IMG/VR virus record: IMGVR_UViG_3300032293_002138
Location: 1-21,611 of that record
Direction: 5' to 3' (one strand)
DNA length: 21,611 bases
DNA from: a virus
In this document: piece by piece, positions 4,972 to 19,842 of the stretch
How positions within the stretch are numbered: position 1 is the stretch's first letter
Layout: the number at the start of each line of letters is the position of its first letter
Translations under genes and position numbers: made by a program
Notes under the pieces: model-generated
Seen by the model: only the letters and a program-made list of their open reading frames with translations
The model's database searches: none
Told to the model about the DNA's origin: nothing

Positions 4972-6014
4972 TCTTCATCCTTTGACAGTGCACTATTATA
5001 CGCTTCATCTATTATCTTGGCAAGCATTTGCTTGTCGATTGACTTCTCGTTAATGGTTCCAAGTTCCTCATGTAGTAACTGTAGAGTGTCCTTGTGTACG
5101 TCCACCGCAACCAGTTCAGGGTTTGCGCTAACTTCCTCGGTGACAGCCAATTCCGCCACACCCGCCTCATAGAACTTATCCATGTATTTCTCAAAAGGCG
5201 CAGCCTTAGTTCGCTTCTTGACAAAAATCTTGACGTAGCAATCCTTGAATGTCGAATAGTCCAATTTTTGCGGTTCGTCTTCATTATAGTCAAACGTATA
5301 GAAAAGTTTTCTAGTATTCTGGATGAATACAAGTTCTCTAGACGAAAAATCAAATACGTGGAATCCTTTCGGCTCCCATACATCCGAGAAAGCCATCTGA
5401 TACTGCGTACCCAGGTAATGAATATTATCACGACTAGACTTAACATGATAATGACCGGTGAGTACATAATCAAACTTGTCAAAGTGTTTTGGGTCATATC
5501 CTTGCTCTATAAAAATCCCTCGAATGCTCTGGAAGCCACACAATTCAAGGTGTCCCAACAGAACACTGCATGTGGTTTCTGAAATAAATTTTGCTGCGGC
5601 TTCCTCGTTCTCTGGGTTGATCCATGGTAATAGTGCGACACAGCCAGCTGTCGTGTTTATTTCAACTGGCTCAGAATATATCTCCCAGTTAGCATATTGA
5701 GATACCAATTCATCCAGAGAATTTACTCTATTGTTGTTTTTGTAATAAGTATCATGGTTGCCACAAATTGCAATACACTTGATTCCCATCTCTCTAAGAG
5801 GTTCAAGAAATCTTGTTCTTACCTGATTGAGAGTTTTAAAATTTACATACTTGCGGCGATCAAAAACATCTCCTAGATGAAAAATGGTTTTAATGTTGTT
5901 TTCCTTTATATAAGAAAATAACTGTTCTTCAAAGAACTTTAAAAAATATTCAAGAACGATAGGTGAATCGCCCTTGTACCCAAAATGGGTATCATTAAGA
6001 ATGATGGATTTCAT
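4968..6014 (-). CDS. 47: Recombination nuclease subunit gp47 (Mre11/SbcD-like)
   Basis: Nuclease partner of gp46. All metallophosphoesterase motifs are present in order in the 348-residue protein: L-N-D-T-H-F-G (residues 7-12 region, D8 and H10), G-D-V-F-D-R (D49), G-N-H-D (N86, H87), L-G-H-L-E (H155), and G-H-Y-H (H188, H190). Length is close to T4 gp47 (339). The ATG at 6014 lies inside the end of gmd (20-base overlap) and has no obvious Shine-Dalgarno sequence, so translation is probably coupled to gmd. In T4 the gene upstream of 47 on this side is the alpha-glucosyltransferase gene; here gmd occupies that place. Confidence 0.96.
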
Positions 6015-7062
6015 ATTTTGAATGGTTGTGTTGTTTTGTTGGTGTCATGTGCTTTATCATAAACTCTTTACGTGCGAGTTCCATATCATGGTCAACCATC
6101 ATTCTTACTAAACCATCAATGTCTACTTTGGGCTTCCATCCAAGCTGTCGCTTGGCCTTTTCTGGATTGCCGAGAAGTTGATCTACCTCTGCTGGACGGA
6201 AATACCGTTCATCGGTTACAATATATTGTTCATAGTTTTTTAGACCAGCGTAGGAAAAAGCCTTTTCACAAAATTCTCTCACAGATATCATATTGCCTGT
6301 AGCCACAACATAATCATCCGGGGTATCTTGCTGTAGCATCAGCCACATGGCTTCTACGTAATCGCCTGCATAACCCCAGTCACGCAAAGCATCCATGTTT
6401 CCGAGAACAAGGTTTTTTTGAAGACCTTGGTAGATTCTTCCGATAGCCCGAGTAATTTTTCTTGTAACAAATGTTTCGCCTCTGCGGGGACTTTCGTGGT
6501 TGAAGAGAATACCACATGAGGCATGCAAACCGTAGCTTTCCCGGTAGTTAATCGTTAAATGGTGTCCATATACCTTGGCACATCCATACGGAGAACGTGG
6601 ATAAAATTTGGTGTTTTCTGTTTGAGGTACTTCTTGTACCTTGCCATACATTTCGCTGCTTGAAGCCTGGTAATATCTAATCTGTTTTCCCGACCGATAC
6701 TGATGTTCTTTTGTTGCTTCCAACATATGTAATGTACCTATACCGTCTATCTGGCCAGTGTAAACTGGCATATCAAAAGATACCTTAACATGGCTCTGGG
6801 CACCTAAATTATAAACTTCATCGGGATTGGTTTTTTCAAAAATATTATAGATGCTATTATAATCACTCAAATCTCCGTAATGGAGAAAAAATGTTTTATT
6901 ATAAACCTCTGGATTTTGGATATGGTGTTCCAGACGAGCCGTGTTAAAAGAAGAAGAACGGCGGATTATACCATGCACCGAATATCCTTTAGATAAAAGA
7001 AAATCTGCAAGATAACTTCCATCTTGCCCAGAAATTCCAGTAATTAGCGCACTTTTATTCAT
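5995..7062 (-). CDS. gmd: GDP-mannose 4,6-dehydratase
   Basis: Converts GDP-D-mannose to GDP-4-keto-6-deoxy-D-mannose using bound NADP(H). This is the first committed step to GDP-L-fucose, GDP-D-rhamnose, GDP-perosamine and others. The 355-residue short-chain dehydrogenase has the Rossmann motif [11 protein letters not shown] (8-18), the GMD hallmark R-R-S-S-S-F-N-T (34-41), S-S-S-E-M-Y-G (134-140) and the catalytic Y159-G-C-A-K163. The sequence is full-length and intact. Its ATG overlaps the gp55 stop (ATGA) and its end overlaps gene 47, so it is woven into the essential operon. Base composition is nearer to the replication genes than to the AT-rich island. No GDP-fucose synthase follows in the window; two fucosyltransferase genes lie upstream at 17.5-19.1 kb. 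Confidence 0.96.
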
Positions 7063-7622: not shown

Positions 7623-7656
7623 AATAGTATTATACTTTCATTTCATCAGAATTCAA
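7622..7656 (-). promoter_or_regulatory. Candidate sigma70-like promoter in front of gp55
   Basis: On the reverse strand, TTGAAT (7656-7651) and TATAAT (7634-7629) are separated by 16 bases. Standard spacing puts the transcript start at or next to the GTG of gp55, which would make that mRNA leaderless. The match is good, but the sequence is AT-rich enough for chance hits, so this is tentative. If real, gp55 could be expressed independently of the sugar island upstream. Confidence 0.3.
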
Positions 7657-8304
7657 GTGCTTATTTAATAGTTTTGTGGCCTTTTCTATGTGAGCTTTTC
7701 CATGAAAACCAAAACATTCTTCTATAACATGATCATTAGAACATTGTATTTCTATAGAAAAATTTTTTGCCACCTCATAAGGGGCAAAATTACATCCATT
7801 TACTTCAAATTGTTTTCTATAATTATGACAAATTGTAATATCTTCATTAAATATTACTTCTGGAATATTTTCGCATAAGTCTAATAACTTTTTAGATCTT
7901 AATGAAAAACCACCATTACCGATGAATTCATCATGAGGGGAAATAGTTTTAAAAAAATTTTTAGGCCATGGAGCTCCAATATAATCATAATTAAAAAAAC
8001 TATTTTTAAATTTATTTGGATTGCAAATAAATCCATCTGCTTGCATAAACAACGCAAACTCTGTATCTATAAAGTTAGAAATATTATATATACAAAATTT
8101 TTGATACTCTCTATAATTTAATTTTTTATTTAATTTTATTATATTTGATATTTTGCTGGAATTGTTACTATGAGTAAAATGAGTTATTTTGGCAAAACTT
8201 CCCAATTTATTCATTTTTTTTATTATATTTTCATTTTTATCATAGTCTTCTCCAGTACCATCACACATAACCAAAGTAACATTTGACAAATTTAATTTTG
8301 TCAT
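7630..8304 (-). CDS. DUF5672-family protein, putative glycosyltransferase
   Basis: The 224-residue protein matches the DUF5672 pattern found in capsule and O-antigen clusters: N-V-T-L-V-x-C-D-G (8-16), F-M-Q-A-D-G-F (86-92), Y-I-G-A-P-W-P (108-114), G-N-G-G-F-S-L-R-S-K (129-138), and N-E-D (153-155). The Q-A-D and N-E-D acids are placed like the metal- and base-type acids of GT-A transferases. Biochemical activity of the family is poorly established, so glycosyl transfer is an inference. It is the last gene of the AT-rich island, 7 bases before gp55, and shares the extreme AT bias of its upstream neighbours. ATG at 8304; stop TAA at 7632-7630. Confidence 0.8.
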   Translation of the reverse strand: MTKLNLSNVTLVMCDGTGEDYDKNENIIKKMNKLGSFAKITHFTHSNNSSKISNIIKLNKKLNYREYQKFCIYNISNFIDTEFALFMQADGFICNPNKFKNSFFNYDYIGAPWPKNFFKTISPHDEFIGNGGFSLRSKKLLDLCENIPEVIFNEDITICHNYRKQFEVNGCNFAPYEVAKNFSIEIQCSNDHVIEECFGFHGKAHIEKATKLLNKHLNSDEMKV

Positions 8305-8317
8305 ATATAAAAAATAT

Positions 8318-9253
8318 TTATCTATTATTTTTTAACCAAGTTTCTAAATTTATTTTTGGTACCCATCCGAGTTCTTTTTTAGCCTTATTATTATCAGCTA
8401 AAGTTACTCTAGATTCCCCAGATCTTGGGGGAATATAAACAATATTGTCACTTATAATTTTTGCAATTTCATTTATAGAATAATTTTTACCTGTTCCTAT
8501 ATTATATATTTCTCCAAATTCATATAGTTTTTGTTTACAATTATTGATCTGCCATTTGTCAAATACTTTTGTTGCTGCTAAAATATTTGCTTCAACAACA
8601 TCAGACACATGTGTAAAATCTCTTCTTTGTTCCCCATCACCAACTATAGTAAGAGGTTCATTATTTTTATTTTGTCTTTGAAAAATACCAATAACAGGTG
8701 CATATTGACCTTTTATGGGCTGTCTTTCACCATATACGTTAAAATATCGAAATATGACAGTCTCAAGACCATAAAGCTTTGAATACATTTTACAAAATTC
8801 TTCTCCTGCAATTTTTGATACAGAGTATGGATTCAAACAATCATTAATCATATCTTCCTTTAAAGGAGGGTCATTTTTTAAACCATATGCAGCGGATGTA
8901 GAAGAGTACACCAATCTTTTTACTTTATATTTTCTGGAAAGTTCTAAAATTGTTGTTGTTCCCAAAACATTTGCTTCAACTGCTTTTAAAGGATTTTCTA
9001 TACAGGGTTGTATCCTTGCTTCCGCTGCTATATGAAAAACAACATCTGGTTTGTGTTTTTCAAAAACTAAAGAACAATTTTTATAATCGCATATATCATA
9101 TTTGTAATTATTTGCTTTATCGTTCCAATAAAATTGGTCGTGTGCGTCTGACGATTCGTTATCAATTACAGTAACATTGTGTCCATCGGCAATTAAACGA
9201 TCAACTAGATTAGAACCAATAAAACCAGCGCCACCAGTGATTAAATATTTCAT
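8318..9253 (-). CDS. NAD-dependent nucleotide-sugar epimerase (UDP-sugar 4-epimerase-like)
   Basis: A 311-residue extended short-chain dehydrogenase. The Rossmann motif is G-G-A-G-F-I-G-S (7-14), the adenine-binding acid is in V-I-D-N (29-32), the catalytic serine/threonine is in Y-S-S-T-S-A-A-Y-G (116-124), and Y143-S-V-S-K147 is the catalytic pair. R-Y-F-N-V-Y-G and G-D-G-E-Q-R-R-D-F-T-H-V follow. These fit the GalE / UDP-GlcNAc 4-epimerase branch, which would supply UDP-Gal or UDP-GalNAc(-type) donors. It lacks features of GDP-L-fucose synthase, so it is unlikely to complete the gmd pathway. Exact substrate cannot be read from the sequence. It starts one base after the stop of the upstream transferase and is well placed to feed the GT7-like enzyme. 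Confidence 0.88.
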   Translation of the reverse strand: MKYLITGGAGFIGSNLVDRLIADGHNVTVIDNESSDAHDQFYWNDKANNYKYDICDYKNCSLVFEKHKPDVVFHIAAEARIQPCIENPLKAVEANVLGTTTILELSRKYKVKRLVYSSTSAAYGLKNDPPLKEDMINDCLNPYSVSKIAGEEFCKMYSKLYGLETVIFRYFNVYGERQPIKGQYAPVIGIFQRQNKNNEPLTIVGDGEQRRDFTHVSDVVEANILAATKVFDKWQINNCKQKLYEFGEIYNIGTGKNYSINEIAKIISDNIVYIPPRSGESRVTLADNNKAKKELGWVPKINLETWLKNNR

Positions 9254-9254
9254 A

Positions 9255-9983
9255 TTATACCTCTATGTAATTTACATTATCAAAAACAAAAAAACCTTTA
9301 TCCCTATGCTCCATAACCGATCCGTGTATGAAAGAATTTATCTGAAGTTTTGAACTATTATGGTGTTTTATACCGGCAGATAAAATATTTCCACCAGAAT
9401 ACAAACAATAATATTTTTTACAACTATGCAAAATATCTGCATAATGTTTCAAACTATCTACTTCCAGTGTATTATTTATAGTATTTTTTAAAGTTATTGT
9501 ATTTAAATTTTTAAACTTTATTAAAAAAATATTTTTATTTTCTTCCATCATTTCATTTATTTTTTTATATAAATTATTTTCGTTATAAAATTTATTAACA
9601 CCATTTTTTAATAAAGATATGGCAGATAAATCTACTAAAGTATATTCAGAATAATTTTGTAAAAAATTTGGTTTATAGTAAATATCAGGATATCTATTTT
9701 GTGGATAAAAGTCGTGTGTTATTTCATTATAAGAAATAATATTATCTGTTGTTTTTAGTGGAAGATCTCCCCGGCAAGAACCAGCATTAATATCGCCATT
9801 ATCTATTCCACTTACGTATGGATTGCATCCCCAAACAAAATCATATATTTCATTGTTGCGATAAGTATTTTTTGAACTTATATAAAATTTTATATTTTTT
9901 TCAGTATATAAACGAGGCAGAGTTGAATATTGTAAATTGTCTCCAAGACCGCCCCATGGCTGTGATAAAATTACTTTATTCAT
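9255..9983 (-). CDS. Putative GT-B glycosyltransferase (GT9/heptosyltransferase-like)
   Basis: A 242-residue protein that opens with S-Q-P-W-G-G-L-G-D-N-L-Q-Y-S-T-L-P (7-23). This is the glycine-rich N-terminal loop seen in heptosyltransferase-like and related capsule transferases (G-G-L-G-D pattern). Near the C-terminus, Y-S-G-G-N-I-L-S-A-G-I resembles the donor-binding loop of GT-B enzymes, which in these families has S/T-G-x-x-x-x-A. It is shorter than canonical GT9 proteins (about 320-350 residues), so assignment beyond a GT-B-like fold is weak. It starts inside the end of the upstream FkbM-type methyltransferase gene (8-base overlap). Confidence 0.65.
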   Translation of the reverse strand: MNKVILSQPWGGLGDNLQYSTLPRLYTEKNIKFYISSKNTYRNNEIYDFVWGCNPYVSGIDNGDINAGSCRGDLPLKTTDNIISYNEITHDFYPQNRYPDIYYKPNFLQNYSEYTLVDLSAISLLKNGVNKFYNENNLYKKINEMMEENKNIFLIKFKNLNTITLKNTINNTLEVDSLKHYADILHSCKKYYCLYSGGNILSAGIKHHNSSKLQINSFIHGSVMEHRDKGFFVFDNVNYIEV

Positions 9984-10656
9984 GCAACCACCAATTTAAA
10001 ATATAATCTGGTTTATTTCTATCGTGAGGGTCGTTTGAAAAATCTAAACCTAAAATAGGGTAATTAATATTTTCTTTTGTAATTTGTTTACACATATCTT
10101 TTCTTAAAAACGAAAGTTCAACTACATCTGGTAAACCTTCTTTTTCTGGGCCACAATTATTACCATGTATATGGAACAGCACATAATTTTTATTTAATTT
10201 TTCTAAAATATTAAATAATTCTTTATTAGGGTTTGTCCACAAATAATGCAATTCAAAATTAATTTGAGAAAATTTTAATAAATTTTCATTTTTTATATTT
10301 GATAAAAGTTCATATTCGGATCCTTCTATATCCATACATAACATTAAATCATTATCTTCAATAAGATCCAATTCGGAATTAAAAAACTTTGAATCAACAA
10401 AAATTTGTTTAAATTCCATATTTTCGTGCCACAATCCATTATATGGATCACAGTCATACATTTTTACTTTTTTTCCTAAAAGACATAAATCGTATTCTGT
10501 CTGTGACACCCAACCAATTCCTAGAGAATAAACTAATTTTGTTTTTTCTAAAGGTTCTTTGTAAACTACATATCCACCATCTTGTTTTGGACCTAATCTA
10601 ATTTTTGTTAGTCCCAAATCATAAGGTGTTAACATGTTTTTAATTTTATTAATCAT
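9976..10656 (-). CDS. FkbM-type SAM-dependent methyltransferase
   Basis: A 226-residue protein with the FkbM/Methyltransf_21-like layout: R-L-G-P-K-Q-D-G-G-Y-V near 20-30, a SAM-binding loop at Y-S-L-G-I-G (43-48), an acidic ribose-binding stretch M-Y-D-C-D-P (66-71), and L-C-M-D-I-E-G-S-E-Y-E-L-L (106-118). The last is the family signature with the presumed catalytic acids. Members commonly O-methylate sugars in surface glycans and natural products. In this island it probably caps or decorates a sugar residue. ATG at 10656; the small HAD gene ends 4 bases upstream. Confidence 0.82.
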   Translation of the reverse strand: MINKIKNMLTPYDLGLTKIRLGPKQDGGYVVYKEPLEKTKLVYSLGIGWVSQTEYDLCLLGKKVKMYDCDPYNGLWHENMEFKQIFVDSKFFNSELDLIEDNDLMLCMDIEGSEYELLSNIKNENLLKFSQINFELHYLWTNPNKELFNILEKLNKNYVLFHIHGNNCGPEKEGLPDVVELSFLRKDMCKQITKENINYPILGLDFSNDPHDRNKPDYILNWWLHE

Positions 10657-10660
10657 ATTT

Positions 10661-10981
10661 TTATTTTTTAAAAAAATTTAAATCATTTATACCTTTATCA
10701 TCAATATAAACATCTGCAAAAGGTTTTCCTAAAACAATTCTATGGTATTTGGCTCCCCAATTATCTAGTTGGTTTTTAGTCTGCTCAAAACAGGCTTCAT
10801 AAGCTTTGCTAGGATTGTCTTGGCTTCTTCTCATTCCTCTTGCCGTAAAGTATACTATGGTGTGACCATTTTCATATAAAGAATTTATTTTTTTTATTCT
10901 TTCATTAAATGGTTTGGCATTTTCATAATCTCCATCTGTTTTGGTGCAAATTGTGCCGTCAATATCTATAACATAAATCAT
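10661..10981 (-). CDS. Small HAD-family phosphatase
   Basis: A 106-residue HAD hydrolase with all four motifs: D6-I-D8-G-T (nucleophile and acid/base aspartates), T46 in F-T-A-R, K86 in L-G-K-P, and D94-D95 in Y-I-D-D. It is a minimal, capless version like those in capsule gene clusters. I start it at the ATG 10981, which overlaps the talC stop (ATGA). A longer frame would need a TTG at 10993 and would overlap talC further. In the heptose-activation pathway a HAD phosphatase (GmhB) removes the distal phosphate after the kinase step. This protein could play that part for the sugar made here, but it is far shorter than GmhB and its substrate is not known. Confidence 0.85.
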   Translation of the reverse strand: MIYVIDIDGTICTKTDGDYENAKPFNERIKKINSLYENGHTIVYFTARGMRRSQDNPSKAYEACFEQTKNQLDNWGAKYHRIVLGKPFADVYIDDKGINDLNFFKK

Positions 10982-11652
10982 TGGCTTCTCCAATTTTTAA
11001 AATCTTCTAAAAATTTATTAACCGAAGATGTAGTTTGTGGATGTGTGTATAATTGTTTTATCACAGATAATCCTGTGGTAACAATATGTGCACCATTATT
11101 CCATGAGTCTAAAACATCAAATGGGGTTCTTATACTGCCAGCAATAATTTTTGTATCACTTTTATTTTGATCAATAAATGAACTCGTATTTTTTAAAACA
11201 ATATTTGGATTACCTCCAATATCTTTTAATCTTGCATAAAATAAAGACACATATTTTGCCCCAGCAAAAGAAGCCATGTTTAATTGGCTTTCTGTGTAGC
11301 AGCATGTACAATTTACATTTATACCATTTTTAGATAGAACTTTTATCGCTTTTAGTTCTTCATAACCTACAGGTATTTTGATATATAGATCATTACAATA
11401 AGTTTTTAACTTATTGTTTAAATTTTTTGCTTCTAAAACAATGTCTTCAAACTTTGTTGAAAAGATTTCAACACTAAAACTTAAATTATTATTTCCACAA
11501 TATTTTGCTAAATTTATGATTAAATTATCAAAATCGCCTTTGGGTTCTTTTGCTATAATTGAAGGGTTTGTGGTTACACCTTGGATAATACCCATTTCAT
11601 TGGCATCAATAATTTCGTTTAAATTTGCCGTATCTATAAAAAGTTGTTTCAT
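10978..11652 (-). CDS. talC: Transaldolase / fructose-6-phosphate aldolase, TalC family
   Basis: A 224-residue TIM-barrel aldolase of the small TalC/FSA group. It has the start F-I-D-T-A-N (5-10), V-T-T-N-P-S-I (26-32), the Schiff-base lysine K92 in Y-I-K-I-P-V, N-V-N-C-T-C-C-Y near 112-119, the barrel segment F-A-G-A-K-Y-V-S, and A-G-S-I-R-T-P. Such enzymes transfer dihydroxyacetone units or cleave fructose 6-phosphate. talC is a well-known auxiliary metabolic gene of cyanophages, where it is thought to push the pentose phosphate pathway. Here it is embedded between a cupin and a HAD phosphatase in a sugar-activation cluster, so it may instead feed or drain a sugar-phosphate pool used for glycan synthesis. 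Whether it is a transaldolase or an aldolase cannot be decided. Confidence 0.92.
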   Translation of the reverse strand: MKQLFIDTANLNEIIDANEMGIIQGVTTNPSIIAKEPKGDFDNLIINLAKYCGNNNLSFSVEIFSTKFEDIVLEAKNLNNKLKTYCNDLYIKIPVGYEELKAIKVLSKNGINVNCTCCYTESQLNMASFAGAKYVSLFYARLKDIGGNPNIVLKNTSSFIDQNKSDTKIIAGSIRTPFDVLDSWNNGAHIVTTGLSVIKQLYTHPQTTSSVNKFLEDFKNWRSQ

Positions 11653-11653
11653 A

Positions 11654-12079
11654 TTATTCCGTTTCTTTAAAAATATATGTTTTTCCGTCTTCTACAATAT
11701 GCGAATCAGAATCATCATCTTTTGATGACCATTCTATTATAACTGTATCTTCCAGAGCAATTCGCATATGCATTAACCCTTTAGGAATATGGATCACATC
11801 ACCTGGATTTAAAATTAATGATTTATTTTTTGCTCTACCAATTCTCAATCCTAATTTTAACTTTCCGGATTCTATATAATACCACTCTTCCTTGTTTACG
11901 TGATACTCCATACTACTCTGTGTCTTTGCCTTCATAAAAATTTTTTTCAAAGCAAATACTTCTGTAGATTCTATCGTTGTTATATTTCCCCAATATTTTT
12001 CTTTAAAATCAATAATTTTTTTAATTTTTGGTAATTTTTGAATTCCGTATTCATTGTCCATAATATTTTTTAAATCCAT
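11654..12079 (-). CDS. Cupin, sugar-phosphate isomerase-like
   Basis: A single-domain cupin of about 141 residues. Cupin motif 1 is visible as S-M-E-Y-H-x-x-K-E-E-W-Y-Y-I-x-S-G, with the metal-type histidine and glutamates. Motif 2 is N-P-G-D-V-I-H-I-P-K-G-L-M-H. The overall pattern resembles the C-terminal cupin of type II mannose-6-phosphate isomerase / mannose-1-phosphate guanylyltransferase, and stand-alone cupins in capsule clusters. Mannose 6-phosphate isomerisation would link to gmd, but epimerase or regulatory roles are equally possible. Start choices are a TTG at 12091, ATG 12079 and ATG 12061. I prefer 12079, which overlaps the AraD-like gene by 29 bases. Confidence 0.78.
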   Translation of the reverse strand: MDLKNIMDNEYGIQKLPKIKKIIDFKEKYWGNITTIESTEVFALKKIFMKAKTQSSMEYHVNKEEWYYIESGKLKLGLRIGRAKNKSLILNPGDVIHIPKGLMHMRIALEDTVIIEWSSKDDDSDSHIVEDGKTYIFKETE

Positions 12080-12740
12080 TTTTTCTTTCAAAGTGTTTTT
12101 TAAATAAACTATTTTGGTTTTTACTATTTGCTATAGTACCACATATATTAAAACTGTAAAGAGCAATTTTTGCAATTTCTTCCAGAACAATTGAACATTC
12201 TAAAGCGTGATCTGGATTATTTGAAAAACTTACACTTCCATGAGATGGTATTAGTATACTTGGAATTTTTAAAGGATCTGTATCTGTACTTTTATACCAT
12301 TTTACAATTTTTTTACCTAAATTGGTTTCGTAATCGTCCAATTCATTTTCTTCCAATTCTTCGCATACAGGAATATCTCCATCATAATAGTCTGCGTGGG
12401 TTGTTCCTAATAGTTTTATAGGCATTTTTGCTTGAGCCCAAGCTGTAGCATACGTCGAATGCGTATGTATTATAGAAGAAATAGAATTAAAATTTTTGTA
12501 AATTTCTAAATGTATTTTCAAATCTACGGATGGTTTTTTGCCCTGGAGTAATTCACCGTTTTCTTTTAATACACATATATTTTTTTTACTCAATAAATTA
12601 AATGGAATTCCTGAAGGTTTTATATAAATTAAACCTTCTTTTTTTATGCTAGCATTTCCCCATGTTAATTTTACTAAATCATTTTTAATTAACGATTGGT
12701 TTAAAAATATGCATTTATCTAATGTATTTTGACATATCAT
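12051..12740 (-). CDS. araD: L-ribulose-5-phosphate 4-epimerase-like class II aldolase (AraD)
   Basis: AraD interconverts L-ribulose 5-phosphate and D-xylulose 5-phosphate by retro-aldol chemistry with a bound metal. At 229 residues this is the length of the E. coli enzyme (231). Landmarks agree with those I recall: T-W-G-N29-A-S, K41-P-S-G, S-V-D73, the metal pair H92-T-H94-S, G-T-T-H-A-D117-Y, S-H167-G, then K-K-H216-F and the C-terminal K-K-Y-Y-G-Q, a hallmark of AraD rather than of fuculose-phosphate aldolase. The gene overlaps the kinase gene by 26 bases. AraD genes usually sit in arabinose-use operons. Here it stands with a RpiB-nucleotidyltransferase and a kinase, so a biosynthetic role toward an activated sugar is inferred. 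Confidence 0.9.
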   Translation of the reverse strand: MICQNTLDKCIFLNQSLIKNDLVKLTWGNASIKKEGLIYIKPSGIPFNLLSKKNICVLKENGELLQGKKPSVDLKIHLEIYKNFNSISSIIHTHSTYATAWAQAKMPIKLLGTTHADYYDGDIPVCEELEENELDDYETNLGKKIVKWYKSTDTDPLKIPSILIPSHGSVSFSNNPDHALECSIVLEEIAKIALYSFNICGTIANSKNQNSLFKKHFERKNGFKKYYGQ

Positions 12741-13557
12741 TATAAAAATTTTCTAAAGAACAATTATTTTTATCTTTTAAAGATATTACATAAGCTGCCC
12801 ACAGATTTGCAAAATCACAACACTCTGTTGCTATATATGCAGCACAAAAAGCATCTCCAGCTCCAATAATATTTTTTACATTTGTTTTATAGCTTTTAAA
12901 GTGGGTAGTTAATTTATTTTTTATACTTCTGCAACCAGAAGAACCCATAGTTACGATATAATTTTTATCTGAATCATAAATTATATTATCAAATTCTTCT
13001 TCATTTAATATCGCCGTATCATAATTTTTATAATTAAAATAATTATTTTTTTTATCAGACATCTGTGCTGATACAAATATTTTATTTTTTACATTTTTAA
13101 GATTTTTTAATAAAGATTCTTGAACAACACCACATCTATAATCATTAATAAAAATTACATCATAATTATTATCAAAAAAATTATAATTTTTAAAATTTAT
13201 TTTTTCTGTATTGCAATCGTTTATTTGCAGATATTTGTATCTTTCATTTTCTTTTATTATCCAATATCTACTTTTTTTATTTGTTTTATTTCCAATATTA
13301 ATTGTTGTAGTACAACAATCTTCCAATAAATGTTCATCTATTTGACTTATGGATGTGACAAAAGTAACATTACACCCAAGAATTTTTAAAAATTTTGTTG
13401 TATTGGCGGTTCCACCCAATTCTTTGTAAGAATCAATCAGATTTCCTTTTAATGTTGGTGATTCTAAAGAAATTCCTGTAGCATTTATATTAATACTTTC
13501 ATCCAGAATAGTATCGCCTATTACTAAAATATTTTTATTTTTTATTTTTTTTCGCAT
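12715..13557 (-). CDS. PfkB/ribokinase-family sugar kinase, HldE kinase-domain-like
   Basis: A 280-residue ribokinase-fold kinase. It opens like the HldE (RfaE) kinase domain: I-L-V-I-G-D-T-I-L-D (10-19), S-L-E-S-P-T-L-K-G near 30-38, and L-G-G-T-A-N-T-T (47-54). It ends with the catalytic I-G-A-G-D-A motif, D235 being the base. HldE kinase phosphorylates C1 of D-glycero-D-manno-heptose 7-phosphate to the 1,7-bisphosphate. In E. coli the kinase is fused to a nucleotidyltransferase, whereas here that second domain is carried by the adjacent gene, fused to RpiB. The kinase start lies within the fusion gene's end (16-base overlap). The substrate could be a pentose, hexose or heptose phosphate. 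Confidence 0.88.
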   Translation of the reverse strand: MRKKIKNKNILVIGDTILDESININATGISLESPTLKGNLIDSYKELGGTANTTKFLKILGCNVTFVTSISQIDEHLLEDCCTTTINIGNKTNKKSRYWIIKENERYKYLQINDCNTEKINFKNYNFFDNNYDVIFINDYRCGVVQESLLKNLKNVKNKIFVSAQMSDKKNNYFNYKNYDTAILNEEEFDNIIYDSDKNYIVTMGSSGCRSIKNKLTTHFKSYKTNVKNIIGAGDAFCAAYIATECCDFANLWAAYVISLKDKNNCSLENFYNDMSKYIR

Positions 13558-14405
13558 GTAGATAAAGATTTAATTTTTTTTAAAATATTTGTAGTCGAGT
13601 AATTGTTTACCAATGGATATATTTTAACATCTATAAAATTTGGTATATTATCACGGATTCTCACTTCTTCAGCGGTCCACTCAGATCCTTTTACCAAAAC
13701 TGACGGATTTAATGTGTTATATAGCGTTTTTAGTTCAGTCTCATCATTAAAAATTAAAACTTCATCCACGTATTCTATTGCTTCTAAAATTTTTTTTCTA
13801 TCTATTTGAGTATTTATTGGTCTATTTTCACCTTTTAATTGTTTGACTCTTTCGTCAGAATCTATAGCTACAACTAGATAATCTCCTTGTTTTTTTGAAA
13901 ATTTTAATAATTCGATGTGTCCTTTATGTATAACATCAAAAACTCCGTTAGTTAAAACAATTCCTTTATGTTTGTCTATTTTTTCAACTCTTTTTACATG
14001 CCTACCTTCAGCCCATTTTTCATTTAACCAAGCATCTACTAATTGTTTCATAGTATCATCATCAGTTATCCAGGATCCTAAACATAAAACATTTGTATTA
14101 TTGTGTTCTTTGGATTTTACAGCTGTTAACATATTATGGCCCAAAGCAGCTCTAACATTTTTAAATCTATTTGCAACAATACACATACCCATTCCGGTTC
14201 CACATATTAAAATTCCAAAATCACATTCTTTATGTGATACAATTGTTGCTAATTGTGAAGCATAATCGACGTAATCAACACTGCTTTCGCTTTCATGTGG
14301 GCCTAGATCGATAACACTGTATTTTTTTTCTTTTAAATAAGTTTTTATAATTTCTTTTGATTTTATACCGTTATGATCAGATGCTATTGTTATAATTTTA
14401 TTCAT
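13542..14405 (-). CDS. Bifunctional RpiB isomerase - HldE-type nucleotidyltransferase fusion
   Basis: A 287-residue, two-domain protein in one intact frame. Residues 1-145 are a complete RpiB/LacAB sugar-phosphate isomerase: I-A-S-D-H-N-G (7-13), G-I-L-I-C68-G-T-G-M-G-M with the catalytic cysteine, H-N-N-T-N-V-L (101-107), and V-D-A-W-L plus G-R-H-x-x-R-V-E at its end. Residues about 149-285 are a cytidylyltransferase-like domain with G-V-F-D-V-I-H160-K-G-H163, the nucleotide-binding HxGH motif, N-R-P-I near 194-197, V-K-G near 238-240 and S-T-T-N-I-L-K-K-I near 270-278, as in the HldE C-terminal domain. I chose the ATG at 14405 because it gives the standard RpiB N-terminus and an 8-base overlap; a GTG at 14432 would add nine residues. 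The fusion implies that both steps act on one pathway. Confidence 0.92.
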   Translation of the reverse strand: MNKIITIASDHNGIKSKEIIKTYLKEKKYSVIDLGPHESESSVDYVDYASQLATIVSHKECDFGILICGTGMGMCIVANRFKNVRAALGHNMLTAVKSKEHNNTNVLCLGSWITDDDTMKQLVDAWLNEKWAEGRHVKRVEKIDKHKGIVLTNGVFDVIHKGHIELLKFSKKQGDYLVVAIDSDERVKQLKGENRPINTQIDRKKILEAIEYVDEVLIFNDETELKTLYNTLNPSVLVKGSEWTAEEVRIRDNIPNFIDVKIYPLVNNYSTTNILKKIKSLSTCEKK

Positions 14406-14988
14406 TTGTTGTTTTATAAACTCCATATGCACATTTAGCTTGATGAAAGCCTATTTCTCCATTAAATGAATAAACTTTTACACAATCACCAAAATAATTT
14501 TTATAATCTTCTAAGCTAAAACTATAAGGGTGTTCATTGTTGGTAGGTAAATCAATGGGTTCAAAAAATTTTATAATTTTTGAATGTTTTTTACATATTT
14601 CTATTAATTTATCTGGATCCTGGACGTGTTGCATTAAATTAAAAATCCAAACTTCATCTACGTATGGAAAGTTGCAAGATTCTGCTTTTTCTTTTATTAT
14701 TTCTATATTTTTATTTTCATATAGATAATCTATCCCTTCGTATGGCGTTGGTTCAATAATATAAGATTTACTATAGTTTGTACAAAAAAGCAATCCTGCA
14801 ATTCTAGCTGGACCTATTTCTACTACAGATTTGCCAGATAAATTTGTATCAATATTTAAATATTTAAAATAATAAGGATAGCTATTTTTATAAGATTCAT
14901 AAGATTTTTCTACAGAATCTTGTATATGATATATTTTTTCACCTATTTGAGCGGATTCCCATCTATTGTCATCTATTGGAATTTTCAT
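14398..14988 (-). CDS. Class I SAM-dependent methyltransferase, putative
   Basis: A 196-residue protein with a class I methyltransferase core. The SAM-binding motif I is V-V-E-I-G-P-A-R (55-62), an acidic residue E79 follows strand 2, and V-W-I-F-N-L-M-Q-H-V-Q-D-P-D (113-126) matches the post-II region of sugar and small-molecule methyltransferases. The C-terminal H-P-Y-S-F-S-L-E-D-Y (153-162) is common in capsule-cluster members. The substrate is unknown; a glycan or sugar-nucleotide O-methylation is the natural guess from context. It lies between a GT-A transferase (3 bases upstream) and the RpiB fusion (8-base overlap). Confidence 0.75.
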   Translation of the reverse strand: MKIPIDDNRWESAQIGEKIYHIQDSVEKSYESYKNSYPYYFKYLNIDTNLSGKSVVEIGPARIAGLLFCTNYSKSYIIEPTPYEGIDYLYENKNIEIIKEKAESCNFPYVDEVWIFNLMQHVQDPDKLIEICKKHSKIIKFFEPIDLPTNNEHPYSFSLEDYKNYFGDCVKVYSFNGEIGFHQAKCAYGVYKTTNE

Positions 14989-14991
14989 TTT

Positions 14992-15873
14992 TTAATCTTG
15001 TGTATTTTTTAATAATTTATTTTTATATAACTCGTATCTCTGTTTATTTATTTTAACATTTAAAATATCTACATTTTCTATTAATTTTTTATAAACTGCA
15101 TATCTTTCCAATGCCCAATTAGCATAGTGTTTATCAACAAATTCATATCCTTGTTTAAAAATTTTAGAACCACTGCCTATTCCAGCAAAATGAATGTACC
15201 AGTCACCGCAGTCTAAATCTTCATTTAATTCCATATATTTATTGACCCTATTCCCCATATTATTTGGGCCACCCACATCATCGTGATTAAAATTAAAAAT
15301 TTTTCCTCCATTTTTTAATATTAAAAATGAAACATAATCAAAAAAATCTAAAATTGGTTGGTTTTCAAAATTCCGACCACATATAGAGGGTGTCAATTCA
15401 TTAATATCTGTTATATTAATTTTATTTTTTTTAAATCCAAAAAAACAAGTCGCAACTACATCTGGCATATGTCTAATGTCATCTCTATTATTTAAATTAT
15501 ATTTATATGGTCTCGGAGGCCCCACCAAAGAATAATCATTATTTAATTTATCTTTTATTTTAGATATACATTCTTTTTTAAAAATTAAATCACTATCAAA
15601 ATGAATGATATTATCGCATGTTGAATCTACTAATATTGCTTTTGCAAAAATAGCAGCTGTCCCATAATGGCCTTTTTTATAAAAAAAATTTATTTCACTT
15701 GTAGGCTCTATAACAATTGGTTTTATTAATTTAAAATCTTTTAATTGATCCAAATCTTCTTCTCTGCCATAGACATGTACAATATCATCGTGGTATTTAT
15801 AAAAACTGTTTAAACAATTTTTTAAAATGTCAGCACAATTATATGCTTCGGTAAATATAAAATAGTCACTCAT
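14992..15873 (-). CDS. GT-A-type glycosyltransferase, putative
   Basis: A 293-residue protein with F-T-E-A-Y-N-C-A-D near residues 7-14 and the metal-binding H-F-D-S-D-L-I-F (91-98; DSD at 93-95), typical of GT-A enzymes. A conserved-looking F-A-G-I-G-S-G-S region occurs near the C-terminus after W-Y-I-H. I do not recognise the exact family. There are no membrane segments, so it is cytoplasmic and soluble. Its ATG overlaps the preceding GT2 stop in an ATGA arrangement, suggesting that the two transferases act on the same chain. Confidence 0.75.
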   Translation of the reverse strand: MSDYFIFTEAYNCADILKNCLNSFYKYHDDIVHVYGREEDLDQLKDFKLIKPIVIEPTSEINFFYKKGHYGTAAIFAKAILVDSTCDNIIHFDSDLIFKKECISKIKDKLNNDYSLVGPPRPYKYNLNNRDDIRHMPDVVATCFFGFKKNKINITDINELTPSICGRNFENQPILDFFDYVSFLILKNGGKIFNFNHDDVGGPNNMGNRVNKYMELNEDLDCGDWYIHFAGIGSGSKIFKQGYEFVDKHYANWALERYAVYKKLIENVDILNVKINKQRYELYKNKLLKNTQD

Positions 15874-16616
15874 AGACTTATCAACCTTTCATTTATTGGT
15901 TTTTGTTTTATTTCTTCTGCACACTGTTCTTGTTTTTTAACATTGATTTTATCATCACTAATAGGATTGACTCTATTATATACATACAATATTTCTTTTA
16001 CGAATCGTGTTCTTTCTCTAGACATTTCTAACATTGGATACATAAATGCGCAGTCGCCAGCCATATCATAATATTCATTAAATTTATTTTTTAAAGCTTC
16101 TTCTGGAATAGCCAAAAATAATTTAGCTCTAAAAGTTCTTAAATGAGATGCCAACCATTTAGAATATTTTTTAAAAGTTCCACTGTGTTTAATTTCTTCC
16201 GGATAATCGTGGTATAAGTGACTTACATTCTGGTAAGGGTAATGGCAGTATGTACCATAGGTCATCCAAACATCGGAACTGGTATAATAATTATTTAAAG
16301 TTGATAAAACATTATTATTTGCCAACCAATCGTCTAAATCTACAGTCACAATAATGCTATTTGGATCTGACACAGAAACACCAAATTTAGTATTTTCTAT
16401 TTGATATTTTCGTTTTTCGTTTTTATATACGGCGATTTTGTCTGGATATTTTTGTTCATATTTTTTTAAAATTTTGTGCGTTTCATCTGTGCTTTGGGCA
16501 TCTATGCATATTATTTTAAAATCATCATAATCTTGCGATAACATTGAGTTTAAAGATGCTGAGACCCAAGATTCGCAATTGTATCCACAACAAACAAATG
16601 TATATGTATTACGCAT
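15870..16616 (-). CDS. Family 2 glycosyltransferase
   Basis: A 248-residue GT2 protein. The N-terminus Y-T-F-V-C-C-G-Y-N-C-E-S-W-V (5-18) leads to the S-M-L-S-Q-D-Y segment (24-30), I-D-A-Q-S-T-D-E-T (38-46) for nucleotide binding, and the metal site V-D-L-D-D-W (92-97). Length covers only the GT-A domain plus a short tail, with no transmembrane helices. The ATG at 16616 lies 8 bases inside the end of the GT7-like gene. Donor and linkage are not predictable from these motifs. Confidence 0.86.
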   Translation of the reverse strand: MRNTYTFVCCGYNCESWVSASLNSMLSQDYDDFKIICIDAQSTDETHKILKKYEQKYPDKIAVYKNEKRKYQIENTKFGVSVSDPNSIIVTVDLDDWLANNNVLSTLNNYYTSSDVWMTYGTYCHYPYQNVSHLYHDYPEEIKHSGTFKKYSKWLASHLRTFRAKLFLAIPEEALKNKFNEYYDMAGDCAFMYPMLEMSRERTRFVKEILYVYNRVNPISDDKINVKKQEQCAEEIKQKPINERLISL

Positions 16617-17568
16617 TTAAAAAATATTCCTTTTTAATTTTTATTAATTTTTTAATTTCATCATAACTTAAATTTACATAATTATTTTTTATATTAACCA
16701 TTTTGTCATGTTCTAAATTTTTATTAATTTCTATTAAATGTGCTTGATGATATAAGTTATTATTTTCAGCATATTCTGCTGAACCAAAATGGTTATTCCA
16801 ATGTTTGTGAAATTCTATTTTTTTATATAAACATTCTAATTTAAACCAAAATAAAGCATCTTCAGGGGCATATCCGTAAAATAACTCACTATCAAAGCCT
16901 CCAACCTCATAAAATAAAGTTTTTGGAACAAGAGTCGATCCACCAACAGCTCCGGGCATATTTTTAGTTGTTTTTGAATAATATTCTTTATCAAGATCTG
17001 GAATTAAATTATTGCTATTATTTTGTAATAATTCTGTATCTTTAGTTGAAAGATTTAAAACCATTTTATTTGAATATGGTTGTATCCAGCTTTTGCAATT
17101 TACAATTAAAGATTCTAAATTTTTAAAAAATAAATTAGGAGTAAGTAAATCGCAGTCATGAAATAAATACCATTCGGAGCTTGGAAAAGCTTTTACACTA
17201 CAATTAAACACCAACCCACGTGAATATAAATCATTTGTATTAGAATTTTTTAAATTTAAAAAACCATAATCAATTTTGTTATTCAAACAGTATAATTTAT
17301 GTTTTGGTCGGTAATCATGCTCACAAACAATAATATTGTACTCATCTGGATTACTTGAATATTTTATACTATTTTTTAAAAAATTTAATGTTGTATGAAG
17401 ATATTTTGTTCTATCTTTTACACCTATAATAATATTATATTTTTTATTTTGTTTATTATAAATAAATTTTTGATCTAAAACATATTTAAAATTATTTTTA
17501 TAAAAATTAGTATATAATAATTTTATATCATCATATGACAAATTTTTAACTTTTAATTCTGTTTGCAT
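16609..17568 (-). CDS. GT7-like galactosyltransferase (beta-1,4-GalT C-domain pattern)
   Basis: A 319-residue protein. The first half is a GT-A domain with I-I-I-G-V-K-D-R (46-53) and the metal motif F-H-D138-C-D140. The second half shows the GT7 C-terminal pattern: G-A-V-G-G-S-T (206-212), G-G-F-D-S-E-L-F (223-230), then Y-G-Y-A-P-E-D-A (231-238), corresponding to the G-W-G-x-E-D acceptor-binding signature of beta-1,4-galactosyltransferases. An UDP-Gal or UDP-GalNAc donor is therefore plausible, and the 4-epimerase gene at 8.3 kb could supply it. A short related stretch, N-L-S-Y-D-D-I-K near the start and N-L-S-Y-D-E-I-K near the end, repeats within the protein. Linkage specificity is inferred, not shown. 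Confidence 0.8.
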   Translation of the reverse strand: MQTELKVKNLSYDDIKLLYTNFYKNNFKYVLDQKFIYNKQNKKYNIIIGVKDRTKYLHTTLNFLKNSIKYSSNPDEYNIIVCEHDYRPKHKLYCLNNKIDYGFLNLKNSNTNDLYSRGLVFNCSVKAFPSSEWYLFHDCDLLTPNLFFKNLESLIVNCKSWIQPYSNKMVLNLSTKDTELLQNNSNNLIPDLDKEYYSKTTKNMPGAVGGSTLVPKTLFYEVGGFDSELFYGYAPEDALFWFKLECLYKKIEFHKHWNNHFGSAEYAENNNLYHQAHLIEINKNLEHDKMVNIKNNYVNLSYDEIKKLIKIKKEYFLNA

Positions 17569-18337
17569 ATTCTTTTATTCCTGTTAAAAAATAATCATCA
17601 AATGAAAAATTTAAAGATTTTGCTATTTCATAATTTTTACTTACATATGGAAACATTTCAAAATATAAATTTTCTGTTAAAGTATTTATATTAAAATTTT
17701 CATTATAAAAAATAATTCCTCGTTCATCAAATATAGACTTTATATAATCATCACCAGCATATATTGGAACGGTTCCAGTCATAAAACAATCTAAAATTTT
17801 TTCTGAAAAATATCCTGGGATGATATCATTTTCTATGGCAAAAGAAAAAAAATAATCTTTTAATCCGGTTAACTTATTTTCTATTGGATTTATACCAATG
17901 CCAAAACAATCAATATTTTTTTTATACTTGTTATAAACAGACACCCGATATTTTTGCATTGGTGTCTGTTGTTTTAAACTTGTTATAAACGAACACAATT
18001 TATTTTTTTTATATAAACCGGGAGAATTAATCCAAGATTTAAAAGGAGGTGGTGTGTGAATAATTTTTTCATTAATTAAATTTTTATTAAAAGATATAAT
18101 TAAATTTGGTTCCAAATAATTTATAATATCTGCATATTTAACATTTAATAAATATTCTGACTCTATTAAATATAAAATTTTAAATTTGTCGGTATTTATT
18201 TTTTTACATGCATCTATGTATATTACCACATCAGCATTATCTAAATTATCAATTTTTTCCCAAAAATTATTATTTGGAATATAATTATTCCATGTAAATG
18301 GATCAAAATACGTTGGAGCCACATATGCATTTATCAT
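17546..18337 (-). CDS. Alpha-1,3-fucosyltransferase, GT10 family
   Basis: A 263-residue GT10-type enzyme (GDP-fucose donor, GT-B fold). The donor-binding region is clear: C-S-F-I-T-S (115-120), Y-R-V-S-V-Y-N-K-Y (130-138), C-F-G-I-G (144-148), K-D-Y-F-F-S-F-A-I-E-N (160-170), Y-F-S-E-K-I-L-D (176-183) and G-T-V-P-I-Y-A-G-D (188-196). These are the hallmark order of alpha-1,3/4-fucosyltransferases. I start at ATG 18337, which shares a base with the GT11 stop (TAATG) and has GGGA upstream. A longer frame begins at 18376 with two more in-frame ATG/GTG choices inside the GT11 gene. It is a soluble bacterial-type form without the heptad tail of Helicobacter enzymes. Confidence 0.87.
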   Translation of the reverse strand: MINAYVAPTYFDPFTWNNYIPNNNFWEKIDNLDNADVVIYIDACKKINTDKFKILYLIESEYLLNVKYADIINYLEPNLIISFNKNLINEKIIHTPPPFKSWINSPGLYKKNKLCSFITSLKQQTPMQKYRVSVYNKYKKNIDCFGIGINPIENKLTGLKDYFFSFAIENDIIPGYFSEKILDCFMTGTVPIYAGDDYIKSIFDERGIIFYNENFNINTLTENLYFEMFPYVSKNYEIAKSLNFSFDDYFLTGIKEYANRIKS

Positions 18338-19125
18338 TAAATGATTTCCCATTTTTTGCAATAAATATCTGACCAATTTTTTGGCATGTTTTGAGAATCA
18401 CCAAACCATTTTGAAGGCGCTATAGTTTTTTTGGAATTCGAGAGCCACGATCCCCACCAACTAAAAGAGCTGTTAGCTAGGATGTGGTAATCACACATTG
18501 TCATCAGACACATGTCAATGTATGAACTTGTATTTTCAACAAATAAAATTGGTCTTTTTAAATTTAAAAACATTTTTTTACTTATTTCAATATCGTCACT
18601 AAAAATATAAATCAATAAATCATCAGGTAATTTGTTCAATGCTTCCTTATAATATTCAATAGAACATACCGGATGATTATGCTGTTGATTAACATAGTCG
18701 CCAAGTCTTATATGAAGAGATATAACTTCTTTTTTAGTTATACTGCGAATATCCAAAGCTTTTTGATATATTTCTTTTTTAAAACAAAACTCTTTTAAAA
18801 GTTCTTCTCTATAATTTTCAAAATATTTTTCACTTTGAAAATAACCACATATATCAGTATCATCCAATATGCCAAATATTCCAGGATTATAACAAAAATT
18901 ATGTTCCATTGCTTTAAATTTTGGACTATAATTTGTGCTATCTTTTGCTGATAAATTTTCAAAACAATCATTTAGTGATAAATTTTTATATTCATCATTT
19001 GATTTATTTTGCATTGGTATTCCAAAATCATAGCCTTTTCTATTTGCTATAGAAAATAAAGTTGCATACTGAAACATTTGGTTACCGAGCCGACCATAAT
19101 TTCCAAGCTTATTAAACGTAATCAT
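18337..19125 (-). CDS. Alpha-1,2-fucosyltransferase, GT11 family
   Basis: A 262-residue GT11 enzyme transferring L-fucose from GDP-fucose, typically to C2 of galactose. Family landmarks are all present: N-Y-G-R-L-G-N-Q-M-F-Q-Y-A (9-21), G-Y-F-Q-S-E-K-Y-F (94-102), the donor-binding H-I-R-L-G-D-Y (138-144), F-S-D-D near 175-178, and the C-terminal A-N-S-S-F-S-W-W-G-S-W-L (217-228). Length is close to the usual 280-300 residues. A GAGG Shine-Dalgarno lies 7-8 bases ahead of the ATG at 19125, which also overlaps the GT25-like stop (ATGA). With the GT10 gene directly downstream, this makes a two-fucosyltransferase pair. Confidence 0.95.
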   Translation of the reverse strand: MITFNKLGNYGRLGNQMFQYATLFSIANRKGYDFGIPMQNKSNDEYKNLSLNDCFENLSAKDSTNYSPKFKAMEHNFCYNPGIFGILDDTDICGYFQSEKYFENYREELLKEFCFKKEIYQKALDIRSITKKEVISLHIRLGDYVNQQHNHPVCSIEYYKEALNKLPDDLLIYIFSDDIEISKKMFLNLKRPILFVENTSSYIDMCLMTMCDYHILANSSFSWWGSWLSNSKKTIAPSKWFGDSQNMPKNWSDIYCKKWEII

Positions 19126-19757
19126 AAATCCTCTGAATCTCTATTTTCTAAAGGTTTATCTGTAAAAAATTGCCATTTATTTGCGGAATCTCTTTCATCA
19201 GCTTGATAAAAAAATGGGTTATTTGGGGTATACACCCTAAAACGATGTTGTAAACCAGCTGCAGCAACATCCCACGGTGTTTTTAGATTGTAAATAAAAT
19301 GTTTATTTGCCATGGCCATATTATTTTTATAGTTTTCACTAATATACAAAATAGCATGAGTAGCTAAAATTCCACTTATTCTTAAATAATTTTCATTATA
19401 TTTTTTTGTTTTATAGTAAATATTTCCATGTGAAACTCCAAGATAAATGCCATCTGCATCATCTGGTATTTCAATAATAGGATTAAAATCCGATGTAAAT
19501 TCTGCATCATCTTCTAATATTAGAAACGGTGTATTTAAATTTTTATCTTTTAAAATATCGAGATGAGATTGACCACATCCAACATAATGGTATATTGTTT
19601 TAGGTGTTCCTTCTGGAGGCTCTATAACTCTAGCGGATTTTCTTATGGTATTTTTAAAACCATAGTTTTTAAATTTATTTTCCATTGCTTCTGCATTTTT
19701 GGTAGCAGAATCTAAATTTATCCATATTACTGGAATTTCACGTAAATCAATTATCAT
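19122..19757 (-). CDS. GT25-like glycosyltransferase
   Basis: A 211-residue protein of the LPS-type family 25: P-V-I-W-I-N-L-D-S (9-17) at the N-terminus, then G-C-G-Q-S-H-L (60-66), and the acidic metal site L-I-L-E-D-D-A-E-F (79-87), the defining motif of this family. This is first in the leftward unit. I use the ATG at 19757. A TTG at 19763 would be in frame, with the GAGG at 19768-19771 closer to it, so the true start may be either. The transcript predicted from the upstream -10 box would begin about 14 bases before this ATG, giving a very short leader. Confidence 0.85.
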   Translation of the reverse strand: MIIDLREIPVIWINLDSATKNAEAMENKFKNYGFKNTIRKSARVIEPPEGTPKTIYHYVGCGQSHLDILKDKNLNTPFLILEDDAEFTSDFNPIIEIPDDADGIYLGVSHGNIYYKTKKYNENYLRISGILATHAILYISENYKNNMAMANKHFIYNLKTPWDVAAAGLQHRFRVYTPNNPFFYQADERDSANKWQFFTDKPLENRDSEDL

Positions 19758-19777
19758 CGTCAATAGACCTCACAGTT

Positions 19778-19805
19778 ATTATAGTTTATTAAAAAATAAA
19801 GTCAA
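19778..19805 (-). promoter_or_regulatory. Leftward sigma70-like promoter of the sugar island
   Basis: On the reverse strand, TTGACT (19805-19800) and a perfect TATAAT (19783-19778) are separated by 16 bases. Transcription would start near 19771, just at the GAGG Shine-Dalgarno sequence of the GT25-like gene. It is the only strong promoter I see ahead of the long leftward gene series, and its box form is that of host sigma70 (early) promoters rather than the T4 late TATAAATA type. Confidence 0.65.
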
Positions 19806-19820
19806 ATATATTTATTTGAC
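19801..19820. repeat. Inverted repeat spanning two divergent -35 boxes
   Basis: A perfect 8-base inverted repeat GTCAAATA / TATTTGAC with a 4-base centre. Each arm carries the TTGAC core of one -35 element, one facing left and one facing right. The symmetry may simply come from placing two -35 boxes back to back, or it may be an operator where one bound protein would cover both promoters. Confidence 0.6.
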
Positions 19821-19842
19821 ATTATCTAGAGTATACTATAGA
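19816..19842 (+). promoter_or_regulatory. Rightward sigma70-like promoter of uvsY-uvsW
   Basis: TTGACA (19816-19821) is followed after 15 bases by TATAGA (19837-19842). A TATACT lies slightly upstream but too close to the -35. The start would be near 19849, leaving a leader of under 10 bases before the uvsY ATG at 19857. The spacing is one or two bases short of ideal, so the -10 assignment is less certain than the -35. Confidence 0.5.

Follow-up and report, generated by a model that had tools for sequence, protein, structure and literature searches.

The window analysed here, a 21,611-base fragment of the IMG/VR virus record IMGVR_UViG_3300032293_002138, carries T4-like core genes that flank a cassette of 17 minus-strand genes located between uvsY and gp55 (Table 1). 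The cassette has a GC content of 0.263, as compared with 0.401 and 0.406 for the core on either side of it, and is compact, with most neighboring genes overlapping or almost touching and all 17 reading frames open. Two groups of cassette genes are our main subjects. One is a set of six genes for sugar-phosphate enzymes, referred to below as the sugar module, which runs from position 14432 to 10661 in the order RpiB::HldE-C fusion, PfkB kinase, AraD-like protein, cupin, transaldolase and HAD phosphatase. The other is a group of glycosyltransferase (GT) genes that includes three overlapping minus-strand genes at 16609–19125, in which a first-pass annotation had recognized GT7-like, GT10 and GT11 enzymes and from which it proposed a Lewis x/y-type fucosylated glycan. 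The three overlapping genes are indeed present.

Table 1. Features of the window and the profile matches on which their names are based.
Feature	Coordinates	Strand	Evidence
RpiB sugar-phosphate isomerase::HldE-C-type nucleotidyltransferase fusion	13542..14432	-	rpiB 148 bits (cut-off 138.65); rfaE_dom_II 134 bits (cut-off 181.5)
PfkB-family sugar kinase	12715..13557	-	PF00294 44 bits; TIGR02198 (HldE kinase domain, best NCBIfam) 61 bits (cut-off 345)
AraD-like class II aldolase / ketose-phosphate 4-epimerase	12051..12740	-	PF00596 125 bits
Cupin, sugar-phosphate isomerase/epimerase-like	11654..12091	-	PF00190 35 bits; PF01050 24 bits
Small transaldolase, TAL rather than FSA type	10978..11652	-	PF00923 134 bits; 3r8r transaldolase 136 bits vs best FSA 85
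HAD phosphatase, EcbF/BcbF-like	10661..10993	-	TIGR01689 52 bits (cut-off 162)
GT11 (alpha-1,2-fucosyltransferase-type)	18337..19125	-	PF01531 93.9 bits, E=1.4e-26 (cut-off 23.9); phrog_2644 273 bits
GT10 (alpha-1,3-fucosyltransferase-type)	17546..18337	-	PF00852 28.5 bits (cut-off 23.9); TAATG-coupled to GT11
GT-A glycosyltransferase with DxD and ED motifs	16609..17568	-	PF02709 13.1 bits, E=0.078 (cut-off 23, below)
gmd, GDP-mannose 4,6-dehydratase	5995..7062	-	PF16363 473.9 bits
GalE-like nucleotide-sugar epimerase/dehydratase	8318..9253	-	PF01370 209 bits; galE 172 bits (best NCBIfam model; cut-off 262, below)
GT25-like transferase, first cassette gene	19122..19757	-	PF01755 20.1 bits (cut-off 24, below); phrog_24091 145 bits; phrog_2835 glucosyltransferase 31 bits
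GT2 glycosyltransferase	15870..16616	-	PF00535 62 bits
Probable GT-A/GT2-like transferase	14992..15873	-	PF00535 21 bits (cut-off 23.3, below); syntenic in L017, L019
Methyltransferase-like protein (by eye)	14398..14988	-	76% identical in L017
FkbM-type methyltransferase	9976..10656	-	PF05050 23.5 bits (cut-off 22.7)
Protein often 3' of sugar module, no glycosyltransferase family match	9255..9983	-	homologues in 14/46 module loci
DUF5672 protein	7630..8304	-	PF18922 72.9 bits (cut-off 24.4)
Cassette upstream (divergent promoter) region	19760..19830	-	TTGACT-16-TATAAT, TAAATA core, GTCAAAT...ATTTGAC inverted repeat

The six-gene sugar module

The AraD-like protein of the module aligns over residues 11–229 with the E. 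coli L-ribulose-5-phosphate 4-epimerase (1jdi, 160 bits), as compared with 56 bits for the best fuculose-phosphate aldolase. Pfam searches of 20 window proteins found no SIS (GmhA-type) domain, the RpiB domain being present instead. The HldD model reached 116 bits against a cut-off of 274.6, with GalE scoring higher for the same gene.

A profile search of uncultured viruses recovered 46 viral module loci, which include near-duplicates (30 are distinct at ∼95% identity) and one locus, L147, with RpiB only. The full fusion is present in 45 of the 46, all six genes are present in 40, the gene order of the window is kept in 36, and gaps between genes are no larger than 60 bp in 31. The GAGD motif of the PfkB kinase is found in 45 of the 46 loci; stricter motif patterns, which proved too strict to be useful, gave the ald2 second histidine in 12 of 42 and the cupin PPG-MH motif in 27 of 45. 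Fucosyltransferase-family genes and gmd accompany the module in some cases (GT11 in 28 loci, GT10 in 8, gmd in 12). When 33 contigs chosen from the 46 were searched for terminase, 8 scored over the cut-off, and these 8 are among the 11 contigs with a length of at least 99 kb, most of the contigs being too short for terminase to prove a viral origin. In the phage collection 161 records match part of the RpiB::HldE-C fusion and none covers 80% or more of it, while the AraD-like protein matches 19 records, none of which has a cyanophage name. Searches of an open-access library listed no paper naming either the fusion or the six-gene module. Judged from sequence, the module appears to be an addition to the nucleotide-sugar genes already known from phages, and one that recurs mostly in uncultured viruses.

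The module also has copies in cells. A scan of cellular genomes gave 80 loci as the best matches listed, among which at least seven match the fusion over its full or nearly full length and the other 73 match essentially the RpiB part. These seven comprise one Prochlorococcus single-cell contig, one archaeal metagenome-assembled genome (MAG), two MAGs from Acidobacteria and Longimicrobiales, and three Parcubacteria-type MAGs. Four of the seven have GT9 heptosyltransferase genes in the vicinity of the fusion. In a phylogenetic tree the copy from Prochlorococcus falls within a set of phage copies to which the window belongs as well (branches 99/98 and 99/96), and the remaining six copies from cells form a cluster (90/89). 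When 200 genomes of its genus were searched, the Prochlorococcus genome proved to be the sole carrier of the fusion. We also observed that its locus (L149, Prochlorococcus sp. AG-347-M18) has all six module genes in a polysaccharide locus, near Bac_transf (sugar-1-phosphate-transferase-type) and Wzc-like genes. In one Parcubacteria contig (L153, 9605–10846) the cupin and HAD phosphatase are fused in a single 413-aa frame, and the cupins of L150 and L152 are of double length.

Two known systems resemble the module. It shares with the ADP-heptose pathway (GmhA-HldE-GmhB-HldD) an HldE-C-type nucleotidyltransferase, an HldE-N-like kinase and a HAD phosphatase, but differs from that pathway in having RpiB fused to the nucleotidyltransferase, in its additional AraD-like epimerase, transaldolase and cupin, and in lacking GmhA. 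The cyanophage SynMITS9220M01 likewise carries heptose-like sugar genes together with talC (PMC7378029). Its genes are annotated as heptose kinase, phosphoheptose isomerase and ADP-heptose epimerase, and neither an RpiB fusion nor an AraD-like gene is mentioned in the available portion of that report.

Glycosyltransferase genes and the putative fucose donor

The product of 18337–19125 is confirmed by its sequence as a member of GT11, as the first-pass annotation had claimed, with a Pfam score far over the family cut-off. The hallmark motif of GT11 is HxRR. In the window this motif reads HIRLGDY, such that the first arginine is kept and the second is a leucine; among 169 tblastn matches H-x-R is kept in 167 and HxRR in 137. 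The stop codon of this gene and the start codon of the next share one A in the sequence TAATG, the listed open reading frame (ORF) of the second gene having begun 39 nt too early.

Assignment of the product of 17546–18337 to GT10 is confirmed by its Pfam score together with its predicted fold. A phmmer comparison with the Helicobacter pylori alpha-1,3-fucosyltransferase FucT (2nzw) gave E=1.6e-4. An AlphaFold2 model built from a 39-sequence alignment has a mean predicted local distance difference test score (pLDDT) of 90.8, and all of its Foldseek matches at ranks 1–14 are GT10 enzymes. In VIA the best match is human FUT9 (Z 17.6 over 241 residues at 3.3 Å), H. pylori FucT has Z 14.9, and the first non-GT10 row has Z 13.9, level with the lower GT10 rows. 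Residues E72, R144, N183, E192 and K193 are invariant in the 39 sequences, and the phmmer alignment pairs N183, E192 and K193 with N240, E249 and K250 of H. pylori FucT, residues that we take to have a donor-binding role, no confirming paper having been found.

The third gene, 16609–17568, had been called a GT7-like beta-1,4-galactosyltransferase (beta4GalT). This assignment is not upheld at the level of the family by Pfam, NCBIfam, PHROGs, a PDB sequence search, tblastn against the phage collection (0 matches) or fold. The AlphaFold2 model is of lower quality (pLDDT 75.4, with weak active-site loops). Foldseek places K4 chondroitin polymerase first and beta4GalT between ranks 11 and 20; VIA gives chondroitin polymerase a Z of 13.9, with heparosan synthase, cellulose synthase and ppGalNAc-transferase rows tied at the top and no beta4GalT among the best 50 matches. 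The folds nearest to this model are those of chondroitin and heparosan synthases. We regard the protein as a predicted GT-A fold enzyme whose membership in GT7 is not demonstrable.

The two nucleotide-sugar genes named in the first-pass annotation are real. The gmd gene is located between gp55 and gp47 and is thus not part of the low-GC cassette, and GalE is the best NCBIfam model for the UDP-sugar 4-epimerase-like gene, which scores under that model's cut-off. GDP-L-fucose synthase (fcl) is absent from this 21.6-kb fragment, with the only candidate scoring 80 bits against a cut-off of 500; the GDP-L-fucose synthase of phage S-SRM01 matches only the GalE-like gene (27%) and gmd (22%) among the window proteins.

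To what extent such cassettes occur in other phages was determined in two collections. In the phage collection tblastn found GT10 relatives in 21 records (14 Synechococcus phages, one "Cyanophage" and six others by name) and GT11 relatives in 102. In uncultured viral contigs a single-sequence query for GT10 gave no matches, while an alignment query gave 448 confirmed relatives, 80 of which were kept. GT11 is present in 66 of these 80 loci, GT25 in 12 and a homologue of the third (GT7-like) GT-A gene in 3. With a floor of 45% identity, gmd is found in 18 of the 80, fcl in 15 and both in 13, with gmd directly 5' of fcl in 9; removal of the floor raises fcl to 59 by taking in distant epimerases. 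S-SRM01 (MW015081) has gmd, GDP-L-fucose synthase, NodZ-type and alpha-1,2-fucosyltransferases and a GT10 gene within 12 kb. According to the available part of its report, cyanophage S-SCSM1 has gmd, a gene for GDP-L-fucose synthase and three for fucosyltransferases, which were interpreted as modifying the host surface (PMC9602691). Given these record counts, the S-SRM01 cluster and the S-SCSM1 report, surface cassettes of the fucose type are already known from marine T4-like phages, and the trio adds little to published cassettes. Like the window, S-SCSM1 and S-SRM01 are T4-like marine phages with gmd and with fucosyltransferase-family and other glycosyltransferases; unlike the window both carry fcl, and their GT10 is distant (38% identity for S-SRM01). 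Pelagimyophages resemble the window in having rfaE-type and glycosyltransferase genes, interpreted as modifying the O-chain (PMC7029224). As far as the accessible text of that report goes, GT8 is their most frequent family and many of the genes lie in a host recognition cluster, in contrast to a cassette between uvsY and gp55. In the S-SCSM2R record (L014, 2951–3048) a wcaG non-coding RNA is annotated just 5' of sugar genes; an Rfam search gave no match in the window or in contig L002.

Other genes, upstream region and syntenic relatives

Among the remaining genes, the ATG start of the GT25-like gene was set by comparison with the uncultured contig L017, the listed ORF extending to 19763. The methyltransferase-like protein had no Pfam match at E 0.1. 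A GT9 identity for the product of 9255–9983 was suggested by eye from a glycine-rich GGLGD near its N-terminus; hhalign comparisons with four GT9 proteins reached 4.3% across 36 columns (0.9% in a control against GT10) and a PDB profile search found nothing relevant, and the protein was left without a family. An additional GT2-type gene at 1–309, truncated where the record ends, is not part of the cassette and adjoins gp62; its homologues are located near GT10 cassettes in L018, L019 and L021.

The names gp44, gp45, gp46/47, uvsY and uvsW were assigned from gene order and similarity, and a late sigma factor in the end region of the window is a core gene matching phrog_234. The closest relative of gp44 is in Pelagibacter phage Mosig (54.6%), followed by cyanophage S-RIM14 (51.9%) and Methylophilales phage Melnitz-3 (51.8%), and that of uvsW is in Melnitz-3 (44.9%). 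Upstream of the cassette, a sigma-70-like TTGAC-TATAAT and a late-promoter-like TAAATA core are conserved in the window, L017 and L002, and the GTCAAAT...ATTTGAC inverted repeat is kept in the window and L002. The motifs TATAAATA and CTAAATA occur in the window at or below chance.

Contig L017 keeps the cassette order from GT25 to the epimerase gene, where the contig ends, and is 75% identical to the window over 13.2 kb. A second uncultured contig, L002/L016, keeps the order GT25-GT11-GT10-GT-A-GT2 with protein identities of 65–71%, and in L019 the GT block is placed after gp62, another core position. A block of ∼1.85 kb (9900–11753, containing fkbM, HAD, transaldolase and the cupin end) is 98% identical in DNA to L017, as compared with mostly 65–85% in its surroundings. 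From this local identity we read the block as a recent recombination or exchange inside the cassette that took in part of the module.

What the cassette may make

We consider it on balance probable that this phage obtained its low-GC, operon-like cassette by horizontal transfer and uses it during infection to make sugars and transfer them onto host surface polysaccharide, with donors, acceptor, product and host-surface purpose all being read from gene families, order, conservation and synteny. GT11 and GT10 would transfer fucose, or a 6-deoxy sugar similar to it, from a GDP-linked donor, probably GDP-L-fucose, with gmd encoded on the fragment and fcl supplied by the rest of the phage genome or by the host. 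The GT2, GT25-like and GT-A enzymes would attach other residues, and FkbM-type methylation would decorate the chain. The host surface would thereby be altered during infection, which could for example block other phages. The more general first-pass proposal, that fucosyltransferase-family genes in a phage surface-glycan cassette plausibly remodel the host surface, agrees with what has been published for marine T4-like phages in the portions available of two reports (PMC9602691, PMC7029224).

The six-gene module could convert a ketose phosphate of the pentose phosphate pathway to a nucleotide-activated, probably ADP-activated, aldose. Transaldolase and AraD-like enzymes both act on ketose phosphates at the C3-C4 bond, so that in combination they could assemble such a compound and change its configuration. 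The transaldolase would build the ketose phosphate and the AraD-like enzyme would epimerize C4, after which the RpiB domain would convert the ketose phosphate to an aldose phosphate. From this the 1-phosphate would be formed by the PfkB kinase and the HAD phosphatase, and the HldE-C domain would adenylylate this sugar 1-phosphate to an ADP sugar. The product is probably a nucleotide-activated sugar and perhaps heptose-like. A heptose is weakly favored by the GT9 neighbors and by the likeness to HldE; against it stand the lack of GmhA and HldD in the window and of GT9 in the Prochlorococcus genome. Only tentatively do we propose that the module constitutes an undescribed GmhA-independent nucleotide-sugar pathway, which is found as a unit chiefly in uncultured phages of the T4-like and other large kinds, and also in one Prochlorococcus locus.

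Several observations weigh against this picture of the cassette and its module. The HldE-C domain, kinase, AraD-like protein, transaldolase and HAD phosphatase all score under curated cut-offs, with only RpiB scoring over its own. The second GT11 arginine is replaced by leucine, though the H-x-R part is nearly always kept, and fcl is lacking from the window, which is an incomplete fragment. The module-bearing Prochlorococcus genome has no GT9 match, which makes "heptose" uncertain. Finally, the phage host is not fixed, because the gp44 similarities to Pelagibacter phage, cyanophage and Methylophilales phage proteins lie close together.

In H. pylori, FutA and FutC together with a GT7 galactosyltransferase make Lewis antigens. 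The window shares with this system the GT10 and GT11 families, which are real, and beta4GalT structures do occur further down among the Foldseek matches of the third protein. A Lewis-type glycan, in which GT7-like, GT10 and GT11 enzymes would build Gal-beta1,4-(Fuc-alpha1,3)GlcNAc with an alpha1,2-fucose, nevertheless appears very improbable. The third protein falls below the PF02709 cut-off, chondroitin/heparosan synthase and ppGalNAc-transferase folds rank above beta4GalT in VIA (chondroitin polymerase also by Foldseek), and the window differs from H. pylori in having neither a demonstrable GT7 nor evidence for an N-acetyllactosamine acceptor. Because GT11 is found in 66 of 80 GT10 loci and the GT7-like homologue in only 3, GT10 and GT11 mostly co-occur without the third gene, and the three genes together cannot be taken as a signature of Lewis synthesis. 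The Lewis x/y claim, which requires a beta-1,4-galactosyltransferase, is not supported.

GT10 and GT11 might instead use a different donor, such as another GDP-6-deoxy sugar (rhamnose, colitose, perosamine or a 4-keto sugar) or GDP-L-galactose. Such a donor would fit a fragment with gmd and without fcl, and a GDP-mannose 3,5-epimerase is reported from S-SCSM1 in what is available of PMC9602691. We think this unlikely, though it deserves some weight, as gmd and fcl occur together in 13 of 80 viral GT10 loci, the fragment is incomplete and the host may provide fcl. It is less probable still that the glycan coats the virion (capsid or tail) and not the host. The late-promoter-like TAAATA core conserved 5' of the cassette would suit a virion coat, but a sigma-70-like TTGAC-TATAAT is conserved at the same site, TATAAATA counts are at chance, and the published interpretations for marine T4-like phages, in the text available, prefer a change of the host surface (PMC9602691, PMC7029224). 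Very low GC and mosaic exchange would also be expected of neutral stuffer DNA of little function, carried for headful packaging, an idea found in the accessible part of PMC9529941. We find this hard to credit, since all 17 frames are open, catalytic motifs are kept in most of the 46 module loci and in the 39 GT10 sequences, and synteny extends across divergent phages.

Glycan genes have been described before in marine phages. If the module is indeed such a GmhA-independent pathway, then phages would bring a whole activated-sugar supply line for remodeling host glycans. The fixed-order module, which recurs in numerous uncultured viruses and on rare occasions in host loci, provides a testable set of enzymes, and the transaldolase genes of some phages may function in making glycans and not in central carbon metabolism.

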